From Dulcicalothrix desertica PCC 7102 (lineage in GTDB: Bacteria > Cyanobacteriota > Cyanobacteriia > Cyanobacteriales > Nostocaceae): a stretch of 64,000 nucleotides of DNA. A program made the position numbers and the translations under genes. This document shows, piece by piece, positions 72 through 62,729 of this stretch. The DNA is taken from positions 1 to 64,000 of the forward strand of contig NZ_RSCL01000014.1 of NCBI RefSeq assembly GCF_003991905.1, written 5' to 3'. Under the pieces are notes generated by a model that had not been told where the DNA came from, ran no database searches, and saw nothing but the letters and a program-made list of their open reading frames with translations. Each line of letters opens with the position of its first letter. The first letter of the stretch is position 1.

Positions 72-290
72 GGATTTAATACCTTAGAAAGTAATGAATT
101 ACTTATTACTAGGCATTTGTTTGTTTAGCTCTTTTGTGAAAATTCTTTGAAGAATCCTCATCTTGTTTTGCCGAAGCAAAACTCATTTAATGCATTGCTT
201 TGACGAGGATTGACTTGTTACTTGGCTTTCAAACTATTACTTTTTCTCGGTTCGGTTGTTTGCGGTTTCTTTCTCGCCGCCGACTTATAT
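72..290 (-). other. 16S rRNA 5' leader (external transcribed spacer)
   Basis: About 220 bases between the predicted rrn promoter and the mature 16S 5' end, with no coding frame. It contains AT-rich and partly self-complementary stretches typical of the pre-rRNA leader that is removed during maturation. The boundaries are inferred from the flanking promoter and gene. Confidence 0.6.
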
Positions 291-319
291 AAGATAACGA
301 GTCCACAAGAGAATGTCAA
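291..319 (-). promoter_or_regulatory. Probable rrn operon promoter
   Basis: On the minus strand a perfect -35 hexamer TTGACA (319-314) is followed after 17 bases by TATCTT (296-291), a -10-like hexamer, pointing at the 16S gene. The position about 220 bases upstream of mature 16S fits an rRNA promoter. The region 320-485 upstream of it is AT-rich and holds no gene. Confidence 0.65.
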
Positions 320-485
320 GCGTTTTTGGAAAAAAATTCCAATTTTTTTTTTCACGCTGTAAATACTGCTTGCATGCGCCATTTAAACCTTTACACAAAG
401 CTGAAAAAGACACCAATCTATAAATAACCGCTAATCAATAGTCAAGAGTGAACTTGAAATTGATTAACGGCTATCATGTTAGAGG

Positions 486-710
486 TTATGGTGTTTTTTG
501 TAGTTCTGGACGCTCTTCAGGAAGAATAGCGCCTTCAACTGGACAAACCTGTAGACAAATACCGCAGTCGATACAGGTAGCAAAATCAATCCAGTACCAA
601 TCAGTACCTTTGGTATTTTTTCCAGGGCCATCATGAATACAAGCAACTGGACAAGCATTTACGCAGTCAGCAACACCTTCACAGACATTTGTAACAATTG
701 TATGCGGCAT
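486..710 (-). CDS. Dicluster (4Fe-4S-type) ferredoxin
   Basis: A 74-residue soluble electron carrier. The second half carries the canonical cluster motif CIDCGICLQVCP (CxxCxxCxxxCP). The first half has C10, C16 and C20-P with a further C24, an arrangement like the first cluster of 7Fe/8Fe bacterial ferredoxins, where one cluster may be 3Fe-4S. Length matches small dicluster ferredoxins annotated in cyanobacteria. It lies 86 bases downstream of hisZ on the same strand, so co-transcription is possible, but no partner enzyme is obvious nearby. The redox partner and the exact cluster type cannot be read from sequence. Confidence 0.9.
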   Translation of the reverse strand: MPHTIVTNVCEGVADCVNACPVACIHDGPGKNTKGTDWYWIDFATCIDCGICLQVCPVEGAILPEERPELQKTP

Positions 711-796
711 AATGTTCCTCTCCGAACTATTTAGGCGATAAAGCTGTACTAAAGCTTTTATACACTAGCAAGATTATGTAAAATCTTGTTCATGTT

Positions 797-2002
797 TTAC
801 ACCGACTCAATAACGGGTGGAGCATCAGCTTTTATCCAAGCAATCTGCCCAATACCTCGACGTACCGCATACTCTCTAATTGCTTTTTCATCTCGTTCCC
901 CCAAGTCCATCTCAACTCGTACCAAATGCGTGGAGTTACGAAGTTTGGCACTATAAGCAAAAGCTGTATTATACGCTTGTGGACTTAAAGCCACTACCAA
1001 CCAGTTCGTCGCTGGTGTTGTCTGTGGCAACTGTTGCGACACTGATAATATCTGATATAGACCATCTAGTAAAAAAACAAAACCAATACCAGGAATGTTT
1101 TCTGCTTGCGGATGATAAAGCCCTAAAAGATTGTCATAGCGACCACCCCGACCAATCGAAATAGATTGACCGTCTGCATTTGTAACAACTTCAAACACAA
1201 TACCCGTGTAATAATCAAAAGTCTGAATCAAACTTAAATCAAGAATAATCGAAAAATTCCCACTCGATTCAAGCAACTCAACTAAAGATTTCAACCCATT
1301 GACCGCTTCAAGTTGCGCTGGTTCTAATACTAAATTTGCCATCCGAGCAAACACTACCTCTGGGCGCCCACGTAAATCAAGCATCAACCGCGCGCGCTCG
1401 TGCAGTTCATCAGTTAAAGGCAGTTCATCAAGCGCTACTCGGTCAAGATTTGCAATAGCATTACGAACACTATCGAGCAACTTAGCAGGAAATGCTTCGA
1501 GTAAAGAGCGTGTAATCCCCGCTTCACCCAAAACTAAATGCCAATTGTTTAAACTCAACGCAGCAAGGCTTTCTGATACTAGTAATAGTATTTCCGCATT
1601 TGCCAGTAATCCCCTGCTGCCAAGTAACTCAACGCCCGATTGGTAAAACTCTTGCTGCCGATTATGTTTCGATTCTCGTCGCTGAAATACATTTGCATTG
1701 TAATACAAACGCTGCGGATATACCGCACCTGCCATACGTGTTACGGCAGTGCGAGCAATCGAAGCAGTTAATTCCGGCCGTAACCCTAACTCTTCCTGTT
1801 CATCATTTTGGAGTTTCAGCACCGCGCGGCGCCCAATCGCACCTCCAGCCATCAGCGTATCCATACGCTCCAGCGTCGAAGTGATAATTTGGTGATAGCC
1901 CCAACGGTGAAAAACCTGCTGTAACCTATCTTCAATCCAGCGTTTTTGAGCTACATCAAGGGGGAGTAAATCCCTAGCTCCCGCTGCTGGTTGGTAAACC
2001 AT
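797..2002 (-). CDS. hisZ: ATP phosphoribosyltransferase regulatory subunit
   Basis: HisZ is a catalytically inactive histidyl-tRNA-synthetase paralogue that associates with short-form HisG, the first enzyme of histidine biosynthesis. The 401-residue protein shows the class II synthetase-like core: GARDLLPLD near the N-terminus and LGLRPELTASIAR, where true HisRS has LRPEGT. The IGRGGRYDNLLG segment is also conserved. The start ATG is the first in frame. It begins 3 bases after the stop of the DnaJ-TPR gene, which implies one operon. Distinction from HisS rests on the altered motifs and the divergent C-terminal region. Confidence 0.92.
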   Translation of the reverse strand: MVYQPAAGARDLLPLDVAQKRWIEDRLQQVFHRWGYHQIITSTLERMDTLMAGGAIGRRAVLKLQNDEQEELGLRPELTASIARTAVTRMAGAVYPQRLYYNANVFQRRESKHNRQQEFYQSGVELLGSRGLLANAEILLLVSESLAALSLNNWHLVLGEAGITRSLLEAFPAKLLDSVRNAIANLDRVALDELPLTDELHERARLMLDLRGRPEVVFARMANLVLEPAQLEAVNGLKSLVELLESSGNFSIILDLSLIQTFDYYTGIVFEVVTNADGQSISIGRGGRYDNLLGLYHPQAENIPGIGFVFLLDGLYQILSVSQQLPQTTPATNWLVVALSPQAYNTAFAYSAKLRNSTHLVRVEMDLGERDEKAIREYAVRRGIGQIAWIKADAPPVIESV

Positions 2003-27677: not shown

Positions 27678-27758
27678 AGAAACCGGGTTTCTACGCATTC
27701 ATTGTCGCAGACAAATCTTTATTTTTATTACAAGTTTCAGGGAAGAAACCCGGTTTCT
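27678..27758. repeat. 81-bp element with AGAAACCGGGTTTCT ends
   Basis: Both ends are 15-base palindrome-like AGAAACC[GC]GGTTTCT; the interior holds CATTCATTGTCGCAGACAAA and a TTTTATTACAA stretch. An inverted copy with nearly the same interior lies at 53499-53578. The remaining intergenic DNA between crtW (27361) and 27841 is AT-rich without a gene. Confidence 0.9.
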
Positions 27759-45603: not shown

Positions 45604-45758
45604 AAAATCTTGTGTAAAATCTTGTGCAAAATCTTGTGTAAAATCTTGTGCAAAATCTTGTGTAAAATCTTGTGCAAAATCTTGTGTAAAATCTTGTGTA
45701 AAATCTTGTGTAAAATCTTGTGTAAAATCTTGTGGAACGGGCATCCCTGCCCGTCCTA
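45604..45758. repeat. Eleven-unit 12-mer array joined to a TTGTGG repeat end
   Basis: Eleven consecutive copies of AAAATCTTGTGY run from 45604 to 45735; C and T alternate at the last base in the first six units, then T only, and the last unit ends in G. That last unit continues into GAACGGGCATCCCTGCCCGT, the left half of the TTGTGG/CCACAA element, so the array is an expansion of that element's border. It makes a minus-strand open frame (QDFT repeats), which is an artefact of the 12-base period. Confidence 0.97.
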
Positions 45759-47265: not shown

Positions 47266-47298
47266 AGAAACCTGGTTTCTTGAAGAAACCAGGTTTCT
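47266..47298. terminator. Bidirectional hairpin between usp and psbM
   Basis: AGAAACCTGGTTTCT (47266-47280) and AGAAACCAGGTTTCT (47284-47298) are each near-palindromic and pair with each other, 9 bases after the usp stop and 3 bases after the psbM stop. It is a short version of the AGAAACC-GGTTTCT element and probably terminates both genes. Confidence 0.75.
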
Positions 47299-53498: not shown

Positions 53499-53578
53499 AG
53501 AAACCGGGTTTCTTTTACAATATTGTAATAAAAGCAAAGATTTGTCTGCGACAATGAATGGGTAGAAACCCGGTTTCT
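53499..53578. repeat. 80-bp AGAAACC element, inverted copy of 27678-27758
   Basis: Ends AGAAACCGGGTTTCT (53499) and AGAAACCCGGTTTCT (53564-53578). The interior is close to the complement of the copy at 27678, sharing TTTGTCTGCGACAATGAATG and TTGTAATAAAAG. It lies between divergent miaE and the next gene. Confidence 0.92.
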
Positions 53579-56819: not shown

Positions 56820-56885
56820 AGAAACCGGGCTTCTACAAGATAAATAGCGTGTTCTAAGAAAATTTTGATAAGAAGCCCGGTTTCT
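56820..56885. repeat. 66-bp AGAAACCGGGCTTCT element
   Basis: Ends AGAAACCGGGCTTCT (56820) and AGAAGCCCGGTTTCT (56871-56885); compensating changes keep the ends complementary (GCTTCT against AGAAGC), which argues that pairing is maintained by selection or by the mechanism of spread. It ends directly at the stop codon of the hydrolase gene. Confidence 0.92.
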
Positions 56886-59126: not shown

Positions 59127-60323
59127 TTAATGGAGCTTGAAACACTCACAAGCAATCTGCCAATCTTCTTGTGTATGTATCACTAAAACCTTGACTTTGC
59201 TTTCGGGCGCCGCAATATTTATATCAACAGGGTGATTGTGGTTTTTTTGGTTATCTAGTAGCAATCCTAAAAAACCGAAAGCTTCACACACAGAAAAGCG
59301 TACATCTGGAGAGTTTTCGCCCACTCCAGCAGTAAATATTAAAACGTCTAAACCCTGTAAACTGGCAAGCATGGCGCCAATGTAGTATCTCAGACGGTGT
59401 ATATATATATCGTAGGCTAGCTTTGCGCGCTCGTTACCTTGAGATATAGCGCCGAGTATTTGCCGCATATCCCCAGAAATACCAGAAATGCCAAGTAAAC
59501 CAGATGATTTATTCAGAAGATTATCGAGTGTTTCAGGTGTATAATTTTCTTGACGTAATAAATGAATTAAAAGACCTGGGTCGATGGCGCCAGAACGACT
59601 ACCCATCATTAAACCATCCAAAGGCGTAAAACCCATTGTAGTATCTATACTGCGGCCATTTTTAACTGCTGCCAGCGAGCAACCGTTACCAAGGTGACAG
59701 TTAATTAACCGTAGTGAGTCTAAATTTTGACCAAGAATTTTAGCTGCACGTTGTGTACAGTATTGATGGCTAATACCATGAAAGCCATAACGACGTATAC
59801 CTTGAGAGACCCATTCGTAAGCACCTGAAAATATTGCTTTCTCATCAGGTATATGGCTATGAAAGGCTGTATCAAATACTGCAACTTGTTTGATATCACC
59901 TAGATGTTCTTGAATCGCTTCAATACCTTTTAAGTTTACTGGATTATGAGCAGGCGCCAGAGTAGCCAGCTGTTGAATAGTATCAATGACTGCTTGCGTA
60001 ATAACTACACTACTCTGGTATTCTTTACCACCATGCACAACTCGATGTCCAACTACATCTATTTCTGATAAATCGTTTATGACCTTAGTGGTGCCTTGAT
60101 GAAGACTGTCTATTAAGTAGGCAATAGTTTCAGAATGGGATGCTGATATATCTTGCTGTAACTCCGCTGTCGCTGTTTTAATTTTAATTTTAGCAACTTC
60201 TGGGCGCCATTCAACTTGTGCAGACCAAATAGGTTTTGGTGGATTTTCAGGAATATTGTCCTGAATTTCGTATAAACAACTTTTCTGACTGCTAGAACCT
60301 GCATTTAATACCAGTATTTTCAT
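59127..60323 (-). CDS. ackA: Acetate kinase
   Basis: A 398-residue enzyme of the ASKHA fold that interconverts acetyl phosphate + ADP and acetate + ATP. Signatures: LVLNAGSSSQKSCLYE near the N-terminus, DTAFHSHIPDEKAIF, GIRRYGFHGISHQYC, GNGCSLAAVKNGRSIDTTMGFTPLDGLMMGSRSGAIDPG and FTAGVGENSPDVR. Length is standard. No pta gene is adjacent. It is divergently arranged with the cationic secreted protein gene, 59 bases apart. Acetyl phosphate handling in the dark or during fermentation is its likely role. Confidence 0.96.
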   Translation of the reverse strand: MKILVLNAGSSSQKSCLYEIQDNIPENPPKPIWSAQVEWRPEVAKIKIKTATAELQQDISASHSETIAYLIDSLHQGTTKVINDLSEIDVVGHRVVHGGKEYQSSVVITQAVIDTIQQLATLAPAHNPVNLKGIEAIQEHLGDIKQVAVFDTAFHSHIPDEKAIFSGAYEWVSQGIRRYGFHGISHQYCTQRAAKILGQNLDSLRLINCHLGNGCSLAAVKNGRSIDTTMGFTPLDGLMMGSRSGAIDPGLLIHLLRQENYTPETLDNLLNKSSGLLGISGISGDMRQILGAISQGNERAKLAYDIYIHRLRYYIGAMLASLQGLDVLIFTAGVGENSPDVRFSVCEAFGFLGLLLDNQKNHNHPVDINIAAPESKVKVLVIHTQEDWQIACECFKLH

Positions 60324-60382
60324 ACACTTACACGGGCATAATTGCTAAACTACTTCAATGGAATCTAAGTAAAAGCATAAAA

Positions 60383-60748
60383 ATGAAGCTTCCGAGAAAA
60401 ATCTCAGTAATCTTAATCTTAATATTTTCTTTAGTTTGTTCCCCTGTATTGGCAGTAATGAATAAAGATAACTCAATGCATAGCATTAGAAAATCTAATA
60501 TTGAGTCAGGAATACAGGAATATGTCCGACAGCAACAAATTATAATTGACCTGGCAAAAAAACAAACTAAACAGCGTAAAGGGTTTTTACAGAGGTTTGG
60601 GTTCAAGCGGAACCGTTCTGAGCGTAAGTCAAAAGTGCAGCAAAAACAAAAGCGTCAAGGGTTTTTGAGTAGATTTAGATTAGGGCAAAATAGAACTAAA
60701 CAGCCAAAAAAGCAAAAACGCGGTTTTCTCCGACGTTTTGGTATATAG
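60383..60748 (+). CDS. Secreted, highly basic protein with three GFLxRF repeats
   Basis: A 121-residue protein with a clean signal peptide (MKLPRKISVILILIFSLVCS, cut after VLA at 24). A short linker helix (about 40-58) leads into a tail rich in Lys, Arg and Gln that repeats a motif three times: QRKGFLQRFG (64-73), KRQGFLSRFR (90-99) and QKRGFLRRFG (111-120). The units use different codons, so the similarity is at peptide level. Dibasic residues precede each unit. The mature protein is strongly cationic and would be periplasmic, wall-bound or released. It might bind polyanions, act as a structural or antimicrobial precursor, or be cut at basic sites. No family recognised. Confidence 0.75.
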   Translation: MKLPRKISVILILIFSLVCSPVLAVMNKDNSMHSIRKSNIESGIQEYVRQQQIIIDLAKKQTKQRKGFLQRFGFKRNRSERKSKVQQKQKRQGFLSRFRLGQNRTKQPKKQKRGFLRRFGI

Positions 60749-60813
60749 AAACCGGGTTTCTTTATCGAAATCTTGTAATAAAAATAACGATTTTGCATAG
60801 AAACCCGGTTTCT
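60747..60813. repeat. 67-bp AGAAACCGGGTTTCT element
   Basis: Ends AGAAACCGGGTTTCT (60747-60761) and AGAAACCCGGTTTCT (60799-60813). The first two bases of the element are part of the TAG stop of the preceding gene. The interior (TCTTGTAATAAAAATAACG) is related to the copy at 53499. Confidence 0.92.
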
Positions 60814-60942
60814 AAATTTAAAGTTTCTTAAACAACTGCATAAAACCGACAATCATCCCCTATAGAAGTAAATAAGGGATGGTTGCTCGATTTGGGAGTA
60901 ATTTGACCCCAGCAATTTATACTGCAAAAAAAGGTGATAAAT

Positions 60943-61224
60943 ATGGATTCATCGAACATAAATTCTAATTTGAACTCACAATCTGAGATAGCCACTTCAG
61001 GAAATCAACAGCGTACTGAACAGGCGCCATTGGCAAAAATAAGTGATACCATAGCATCGCTAACAGTATGTGATTATTTAGGTGGGTTGGCAGTGATGTT
61101 GATATTTTTAGCAATTACACGCATGATATCTCAAACAGGGTTGGGGAAAAAGTCCAAGAGAGTGAGAGAGGTTGAATTTTTGGAACGTGTCTGGAAAATG
61201 GACGCTTCCAAAATAAATCATTAA
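60943..61224 (+). CDS. Small membrane-anchored protein, unknown
   Basis: A 93-residue protein with a polar, asparagine/serine-rich N-terminus, one transmembrane segment (about 47-62, CDYLGGLAVMLIFLAITRM) and a basic C-terminal part (GKKSKRVREVEFLERVWKMD). The ATG at 60943 is preceded by AAGGTGAT, a good ribosome site, so it is chosen over GTG 60934. It is convergent with the M56 peptidase gene, with only 5 bases between stops. No function can be assigned. Confidence 0.65.
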   Translation: MDSSNINSNLNSQSEIATSGNQQRTEQAPLAKISDTIASLTVCDYLGGLAVMLIFLAITRMISQTGLGKKSKRVREVEFLERVWKMDASKINH

Positions 61225-61229
61225 AGCAA

Positions 61230-62108
61230 TTATTGATGAAATAATACAGTTATCAAGGGTAGCAATGCTAGCAAGAAGTTATGCCAGTATTGTGAACACG
61301 GTTGTGCATTAGTAAATTGCTGTTGATGGTTAAGTAAAGCTTCGATACGCTGCTCCAAGCGTGTACCTTCACTTGACGAACCTAAAGCAGCACAAAAGAT
61401 TTCAGCACAAGATGAAAAGTTATTTTCTGACTGTGTTTGGAAAGAAACAACAAGTAACAGTGACTCCGCTAAAAGTAAATTATCAACTCTACTCGCAGCA
61501 TAAGCATCTGCACGGAGTTCACGCAAAATTAAAAGCTCTTGCCATAAAGCGTCAGTGTTAGGCAACCAACTACTGCATTCACGTATCCAACCAAGCCAAA
61601 AAAACCAAAATGTATCGCGATAATAGTAATGACCTTGTTCGTGAGCAAGAACTGTTTCTAAATGAGCAGGAGAAAGGCTTTGCAATAAACCTTTACTAAT
61701 GACAAGCTCCGACTTCCAAAAACCTATTTGCCCTGCAAAAAGTGCTGCTGTATCTAGTAATCGGACTTTTTGATTACCTAATTTAGTCTCAGTACATACT
61801 TTGACAGAGCGTAATGATTGCCACCCTTGATACGTTAATCTTACTAATAACACGACAAACAGTACAAGGCTACCAATAGCAAAACCATAGCTTAAACAAC
61901 CAGTTTGCCACATACCCATTTTACCTTGGGTACCCATACACAATAGTGCGATGGCGGTAGTAAAAATCAGCAAAGGTGGAAATAGAAAGAAAAATAAAGC
62001 TTGGCGCCAGCGCGAAGAGAAGTTCTGGTAACATTCGGCACTTATAGAAGCATTACGCCGTATAAACCAGGCGGTGGTTATGGATGCGAAAATGATAATT
62101 AGATGCAT
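61230..62108 (-). CDS. M56-family (BlaR1-like) membrane metallopeptidase
   Basis: A 292-residue protein with four or five hydrophobic segments and the zinc-protease motif HEQGH (in VLAHEQGHYYYRD), followed by LRELRADAYAASR, which provides a further ligand. It corresponds to the protease portion of BlaR1/MecR1 but has no extracellular penicillin-binding sensor domain. In BlaR-type systems the protease inactivates the BlaI-type repressor. The BlaI-like gene is directly upstream with a 2-base gap. The signal sensed is unknown. Confidence 0.9.
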   Translation of the reverse strand: MHLIIIFASITTAWFIRRNASISAECYQNFSSRWRQALFFFLFPPLLIFTTAIALLCMGTQGKMGMWQTGCLSYGFAIGSLVLFVVLLVRLTYQGWQSLRSVKVCTETKLGNQKVRLLDTAALFAGQIGFWKSELVISKGLLQSLSPAHLETVLAHEQGHYYYRDTFWFFWLGWIRECSSWLPNTDALWQELLILRELRADAYAASRVDNLLLAESLLLVVSFQTQSENNFSSCAEIFCAALGSSSEGTRLEQRIEALLNHQQQFTNAQPCSQYWHNFLLALLPLITVLFHQ

Positions 62109-62110
62109 TA

Positions 62111-62530
62111 TTACTGTTCCTCTCTTGCTTGACGTGCATCTTGTATACGTTTTGCGATTGCTTGAATTTGTGTGCTAGCCGCTTCATCAAGACTATCAGC
62201 AAAAGCGGCAATTATGTCAGGATTTCCAATCGCAAGAAATCGCTGTAGCTGTTCGTGGGCTTTAATGACTTCAGCTTGTTGTTTTGTTAGTAATGGGCGC
62301 CAAAAAAATGCACGTCCACACTTATCACACTTTAACCAACCTTTATCAGTCAGACGACGTAGCACTGTAGTAACAGAAGTATACGCTAATTCGCGGTTGG
62401 GATCAGCTAAGATACGGTCGTGTACATCTTTAACTGTAACGCTACCGAGTTCCCACACGATATTTAATATTTCTGCTTCCAGTGGACCTACTGAAAGTTG
62501 TTTCGGACGGTAATCAGGTAAAGGCGCCAT
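62111..62530 (-). CDS. BlaI/MecI/CopY-family transcriptional repressor
   Basis: A 139-residue winged-helix repressor. The DNA-binding part is LGPLEAEILNIVWELGSVTVKDVH with AYTSVTTVLRRLTDKGWL (recognition helix and wing). Instead of the usual basic tail of the wing it has KCDKCGRAFFWRPLL, a CxxC pair that could bind a metal or respond to redox. The C-terminal helix resembles the BlaI dimerisation domain. It is followed after 2 bases by an M56 protease gene, its presumed inactivator. The upstream region carries a 43-bp tandem repeat that may contain the operator. Confidence 0.9.
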   Translation of the reverse strand: MAPLPDYRPKQLSVGPLEAEILNIVWELGSVTVKDVHDRILADPNRELAYTSVTTVLRRLTDKGWLKCDKCGRAFFWRPLLTKQQAEVIKAHEQLQRFLAIGNPDIIAAFADSLDEAASTQIQAIAKRIQDARQAREEQ

Positions 62531-62569
62531 ATTTTAGATTTTCCCTTTGGGAGATAAATGAATTATTAT

Positions 62570-62729
62570 ACGGGCAGGTTCAGGAAAATTGTAATTGTAA
62601 ACCCGATGCTTGTACGGGCGGGTTTTAGAAATTGTAAGTTTAAACCCGATGCTTGTACGGGCGGGTTTCGGAAATTGTAATTTTAAACCCGATGCTTGTA
62701 CGGGCGGGTTTCGGAAATTGTAAGTTTAC
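62570..62729. repeat. 43-bp tandem repeat, three full copies and one partial
   Basis: Full copies begin at 62601, 62644 and 62687 (each starting ACCCGATGCTTGTACGGGCG); a partial copy precedes at 62570. Each unit holds an ACCCG ... CGGGCGGGT hairpin. It sits in front of the BlaI-like gene (start 62530). The rest of the 62531-63014 gap is AT-rich and should include the comB promoter. Confidence 0.95.

Follow-up and report, generated by a model that had tools for sequence, protein, structure and literature searches.

The stretch of DNA analyzed here (the window) comprises 64,000 nucleotides (64 kb) from Dulcicalothrix desertica PCC 7102. One of its genes encodes a small basic repeat protein (P0001), divergent from the acetate kinase gene ackA (Table 1). 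A Sec signal peptide is predicted from the basic start of the protein and its hydrophobic residues 7-24; a lipobox is absent, and the four closest orthologues have Ser or Tyr in place of the signal-peptide cysteine (alignment A1). The initial annotation had described three GFLxRF units in the tail, and these are indeed encoded, with glycines at residues 67, 93 and 114, closely preceded by dibasic residues (RK-G, KR-Q-G and KR-G). The tail carries a charge of +23, with 38.7% K/R/H, 11.3% aromatic residues and no Cys, and is thus cationic-aromatic and Cys-poor. When residues 60-121 were shuffled 200,000 times, one strict GFLxRF unit was obtained in 193 shuffles and two or more in none, as compared with the three of P0001.

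Table 1. Coordinates of genes, protein segments and palindromic elements in the window.
Feature	Position	Strand	Remarks
ackA, acetate kinase, upstream and divergent	59127..60323	-	Pfam Acetate_kinase, E 2.1e-140
Divergent intergenic region, ackA start codon to family-gene start codon, 59 bp	60324..60382	.	60 bp start to start
Basic repeat protein (P0001), putatively secreted, 121 aa, GF-type member	60383..60748	+	homologues in 6/6 further genomes searched within the genus; pN/pS 0.20
Predicted Sec signal peptide, residues 1-24 (..SPVLA|VM..)	60383..60454	+	from sequence and alignment A1
Spacer, residues 25-63	60455..60571	+	counterpart of the relatives' '..NEQS..ELLIAQRR' pre-tail region; non-acidic in P0001
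Unit 1, QRKGFLQRFGFKR, residues 64-76	60572..60610	+	
Unit 2, KRQGFLSRFRLG, residues 90-101	60650..60685	+	
Unit 3, KQKRGFLRRFGI, residues 110-121, C-terminus	60710..60745	+	
Paired palindrome (AGAAACCGGGTTTCT...AGAAACCCGGTTTCT) that overlaps the P0001 stop codon	60747..60813	.	hairpin -32.6 kcal/mol, z -7.1
Five paired palindromic elements (including the preceding)	27678-27758, 47266-47298, 53499-53578, 56820-56885, 60747-60813		

The codons of the three units were as first reported (GGG TTT TTA, GGG TTT TTG and GGT TTT CTC for Gly-Phe-Leu; AGG, AGA and CGT for Arg). The accompanying statement that they differ at nearly every synonymous position was too strong, since all six core Phe residues are encoded by TTT and two of the three Gly residues by GGG; Leu and Arg are the only core residues with different codons in all three units. 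A recent duplication of the units can nevertheless be ruled out, because of these codons and because position-matched units are common to several genera.

Selection was analyzed in five close Calothrix-type orthologues, including P0001, as pairwise pN/pS pooled over ten non-independent pairs. The value for the entire gene was 0.20, while those for the units, the linkers and the signal peptide were 0.07, 0.38 and 0.41, respectively. The gene is therefore a real protein-coding gene, and a spurious reading frame is ruled out by purifying selection together with the existence of homologues. The low ratio in the units relative to the linkers indicates constraint at the peptide level, in agreement with the initial claim: among the 37 unit codons, 12 varied only silently and 2 in the encoded amino acid, versus 2 and 5, respectively, of the 22 linker codons. 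Silent-only variation was found in 5 of the 18 GFLxRF core codons and amino-acid changes in none of them, and all three units were kept in each of the five genomes.

A first homologue search yielded matches at E <= 1 in 27 of 60 genomes (the window genome included), most of which were weak; the strong matches were confined to the window genome and the six other members of its genus. In each of three profile or homologue searches the window genome gave a single match. Eleven proteins, drawn from four genera of the taxonomic family (Nostocaceae), the Calothrix-type one among them, were chosen by eye as the GF-type set, such that the split between GF and non-GF motifs is partly one of definition. 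Strict GFLxRF occurs in three copies in 5 of the 11 and in a single copy in one (from genome G003, which also carries GILQRF and GFFSKF), and is missing from the other five (G001, G083, G025, G028 and G026). Related units in the GF-type proteins include GFFSKF, GFFSRF, GLFSRF, GFWNTF, GFWSRF, GFFNFF and GIIRGF. A twelfth GF-type protein, from G129, is near-identical to that of G026. In alignment A3, read by eye, the units seem to match by position across genera, with ..RFGFK. as the first, then a G/V-hydrophobic ..F unit, which the five close orthologues lack, and QG....F.

The initial annotation had made its reading depend on conservation of GFLxRF among homologues. Homologues were found in all six of the other genus genomes, but the complete strict motif was restricted to 5 of the 11 GF-type proteins, and in the 84 other proteins of the basic repeat family examined even a relaxed unit (G-hydrophobic-hydrophobic-x-x-F after residue 40) was absent. 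Strict GFLxRF is thus a local form within a wider family, and the family-wide trait is the cationic-aromatic tail of these putatively secreted proteins rather than the motif.

Profile searches of 217 genomes from the taxonomic family served to assess the extent of this wider protein family. A nine-row profile found matches in 85 genomes (E <= 0.01), and a 25-row profile (A2), made mainly from Arg/Tyr-type relatives, in 111 (E <= 0.001), i.e., about half; A2 missed genes that are present in G001, G003, G025, G083 and G129, its matches in G115, G212 and G214 are weak, with sequences left unread, and its other hits were likewise not all read. P0001 itself matched A2, whose single GF-type row derives from G028, with an E-value of 5.5e-7, and proteins of the RR type were matched by the A1 and A3 profiles. 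A set of 388 genomes sampled from the order, the same taxonomic family included, was scored on the best first-look candidates per genome; here all 31 of the A2 matches at E <= 1e-4 fell in the taxonomic family, as did 14 of the 15 matches to the GF profile. The fifteenth, a 494-aa frame in G296 (L106), was judged to be due to chance.

In total, 96 distinct proteins matched the profiles, of which 95 were analyzed further after removal of L106; the doubtful L130 was retained. Leader and tail were separated by a regular expression in 84 proteins and by hand-set anchors in the 11 GF-type proteins. The 95 tails have a median length of 63 residues, a charge between +7 and +38 (median +21), a median K/R/H content of 43.1%, 8.8-29% aromatic residues (F/Y/W; median 17.5%) and at most one Cys. 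Alignment of 15 representatives (105 pairs) against shuffled sequences gave median z values of 12.2 for the leaders, where the signal derives partly from the signal peptide, 4.8 for the spacer alone and 0.6 for the tails; z exceeded 3 in 87, 57 and 22 pairs, respectively. The 22 tail pairs that do align count against the polycation reading set out below.

The family consists of proteins with a common signal peptide and spacer, to which a lineage-specific, mostly repetitive, Cys-poor Arg/Lys-aromatic tail is joined, and the signal peptide and spacer of P0001 are related to those of the other members. Examples of tails from the different lineages are RRRQPYGRYQRI, RVRPVYRPVR, SRGYYGRPRYR, YRRSQYRR, RYRVRPVYRPVR, RYRQERYR, RRFDRDSHD and RRRYVRPVV, and a further type ends in RHGRWQLVRDRHGRLMYDW. 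Members close to ackA (L134, L116, L117 and others) often end with a conserved RHGRWQLVRDRHGRLMYDW-like block, which resembles a small conserved domain more than a repeat. Genome G028 carries, in addition to its GF-type copy, a Gln/Trp/Arg-rich repeat protein with a family-like leader (L130; QRRWQEQQRQ; 196-909, minus strand).

The distribution of the tail types was examined on a tree of AckA with 42 rows (45 genomes were chosen, of which G199, G213 and G012 gave no sequence). Nine of the ten GF-type rows lie on one side of a branch with support of 91/81, together with one genome lacking a detected gene, while G028 is placed in an open part of the tree beside them. The 17 Arg/Tyr rows fall within one 100/100 group, along with six rows without the gene, and the four RVRPV rows cluster together at 99/94; the position of G129, a long branch, is unsure. 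Tail type thus largely tracks clade. The GF label requires three changes on the tree, and a single origin is therefore not shown by it.

The genomic context is shared by many members. Within the available flanks of the 95 proteins, ackA was found in 48 cases, always upstream and on the opposite strand, and tal also in 48, always downstream and on the opposite strand; both genes were present in 37 flanks, ackA alone in 11, tal alone in 11 and neither in 36. In some genomes (e.g., at L046 and L131) two copies of the family gene lie between ackA and tal. The region between the divergent start codons measures about 100 bp in 21 of 31 aligned cases. At the seven loci of the genus tal was not seen in the available flank, and the downstream genes encode a 96-aa protein followed by an M48 peptidase; among other GF-type genes, those of G083, G025 and G028 are followed by tal.

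The ackA gene itself was detected in 204 of the 217 genomes. For the 81 genomes in which both ackA and a family member could be placed among the listed matches, the two were within 2.5 kb of each other in 39 and separated by 2.5-10 kb in 5; the member was farther away on the ackA contig in 10 and on another contig in 27, some of the latter perhaps owing to broken assemblies. Members from g4 and from g7, a large genus, sit away from ackA where they could be placed among the listed matches, several of those in g7 beside tal. Conversely, among 40 regions upstream of ackA in genomes not on the A2 match list, a convincing member was recognized only in G129, and tal occurred without a member in 15. 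Sub-threshold signals in G119, G024, G023 and G113 (E 0.17-0.62) were judged to be due to chance, and a 106-aa basic reading frame with a hydrophobic start in G013 was unmatched by the family profiles. The slot between ackA and tal is therefore frequent rather than fixed, since listed members often lie elsewhere. On these grounds P0001 is very probably a GF-type member of a small-secreted-protein family whose genes are often divergent from ackA and convergent with tal, and whose proteins share a leader and differ in their lineage-specific tails.

The gene alr2562, which may be the member of this family in Anabaena 7120, was not found named in the literature searched. In the available portion of one report, talB of the same strain corresponds to all2563, and pyk1, gap1 and xfp are numbered close by (PMC4390870).

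Several other features flank the window gene. The reading frame at 60940-61224 (plus strand), which lies downstream in the same orientation at each of the seven genus loci, encodes a protein of up to 96 amino acids with one hydrophobic stretch, for which Pfam matches were below cut-off only. The M48-type peptidase (61230-62530, minus strand; Peptidase_M48 above cut-off) adjoins a penicillinase-repressor (BlaI)-type regulator, upstream of which a 43-bp tandem repeat of 3.7 copies occupies positions 62569-62728.

No Pfam or NCBIfam model matched P0001 or the relatives scanned above cut-off. Sub-cut-off Pfam matches of P0001 (filovirus VP24, BCNT and MreC) were attributed to composition, and the best match to a solved structure (E 0.064) to chance. 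A description of the family was not found in the titles and abstract beginnings of the literature searched, and the family is apparently undescribed so far. Categories of unknown function accounted for 48% of the proteins identified in an Anabaena exoproteome, according to the available portion of that report (PMC4390845).

The initial annotation had listed several candidate functions, of which the multivalent polyanion binder stays the best reading. We tentatively favor, at somewhat less than even confidence, a disordered multivalent polycation that binds polyanions of the envelope or sheath through Arg/Lys residues and aromatic stickers, since the export leader, the unlike tails of like composition, the scarcity of Cys and the repetition all fit such a protein. 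Following export by Sec, the tail would remain unfolded. Its Arg and Lys residues could then attach to the phosphate, carboxylate or sulfate groups that lipopolysaccharide, sheath polysaccharide and further polyanions carry. Phe, Tyr and Trp would be the stickers, cross-linking or condensing the resulting complex, which may in turn shape or protect the envelope or sheath. What selection maintains throughout the family would be the charge, the aromatic content and the multivalency, and not a particular sequence; for Calothrix, this sticker would have become fixed as GFLxRF-x-(F/L/I/M), a unit that is itself under purifying selection. An AlphaFold2 model of P0001 (from 10 sequences) showed one helix at residues 5-71, another at 85-94 and a tail without a confident fold (pTM 0.23; ten-residue means of 42-58 for residues 71-121). 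The low confidence is weak evidence for disorder, and the two helices speak against it. A specific partner or protease would account for the tight constraint on GFLxRF in Calothrix just as well as a generic polyelectrolyte would.

Cationic antimicrobial precursors with a conserved prepro-region and a variable mature part are known, e.g., those of frog skin peptides, and the family is similar to that class, as generally described, in its common leader and lineage-specific cationic tail. A bacteriocin-like precursor of this kind would comprise a signal peptide, a pro-region and a cationic amphipathic mature part that diversifies among lineages and attacks the membranes of competitors. The strongly cationic-aromatic tails, their divergent architecture behind a conserved leader and the acidic spacer preceding the tail in many relatives (median charge -3, n=95) would be consistent with this explanation. 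However, of the seven genus proteins six have a non-acidic spacer (charge +1 to +3, P0001 itself having +1; that of G003 is -1), and no immunity, transport or maturation gene was recognized among the neighbors scanned. Moreover, the units are under purifying rather than diversifying selection among close species, unlike the frog-skin type, and tail type largely tracks clade on the AckA tree. An antimicrobial precursor is therefore unlikely.

In more general terms, the combination of a conserved export leader with a tail rebuilt in each clade from a different basic-aromatic repeat might reflect selection on polymer chemistry (charge, aromatic stickers and valency) and not on sequence, or a clade-by-clade arms race of secreted cationic peptides, a proposal that we regard as possible and rather doubtful.

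The Asr protein of E. coli is small, basic and repetitive, as are the proteins described here. By analogy, the latter might act as disordered basic chaperones or buffers in the periplasm, co-induced with ackA when fermentation acidifies the cell. The probable export and small, basic, repetitive character of P0001 and its divergent position near ackA, which recurs within 2.5 kb in 39 of the 81 listed genomes, would agree with such a role, and Asr is described as an intrinsically disordered periplasmic chaperone in the available part of a recent report (PMC10746267). Yet in the remaining 42 of these genomes the member lies farther from ackA or on another contig, and the high aromatic content of the tails, a property of the present family, is left unexplained. 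The Asr model (PF06392) matched nothing in the window genome, a control being found in E. coli, and was absent among the Pfam hits of P0001. This alternative is accordingly considered decidedly improbable.

The PatX peptide has a different motif and no repeat array, and the GFLxRF repeats are set apart from it by that general description. Cleavage of the tail at its basic sites to release GFLxRF signaling peptides appears more improbable still: every unit is flanked by basic residues, the units are the most constrained part of the protein and PatX of Nostoc PCC 7120 offers, in the available part of its report, a precedent for a small processed inhibitory peptide in heterocyst-forming cyanobacteria (PMC12756182), but GF-type proteins differ among themselves in the number and sequence of their units, and a common ligand across the family is precluded by the absence of the relaxed unit from the 84 non-GF proteins.

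The combination of one leader with a natural series of tails of similar composition and dissimilar sequence allows a direct test of sequence versus polymer chemistry, here in a secreted and probably disordered protein.

The paired palindromic element that overlaps the stop codon of the P0001 gene is a possible terminator. Five such elements with AGAAACCSGGTTTCT-like ends (one mismatch allowed) were detected in the 64-kb window, where none would be expected by chance, and they look like small interspersed repeats. Elsewhere in the window, positions 45604-45734 are occupied by a 12-bp tandem repeat (AAAATCTTGTGT) in 10.9 copies.
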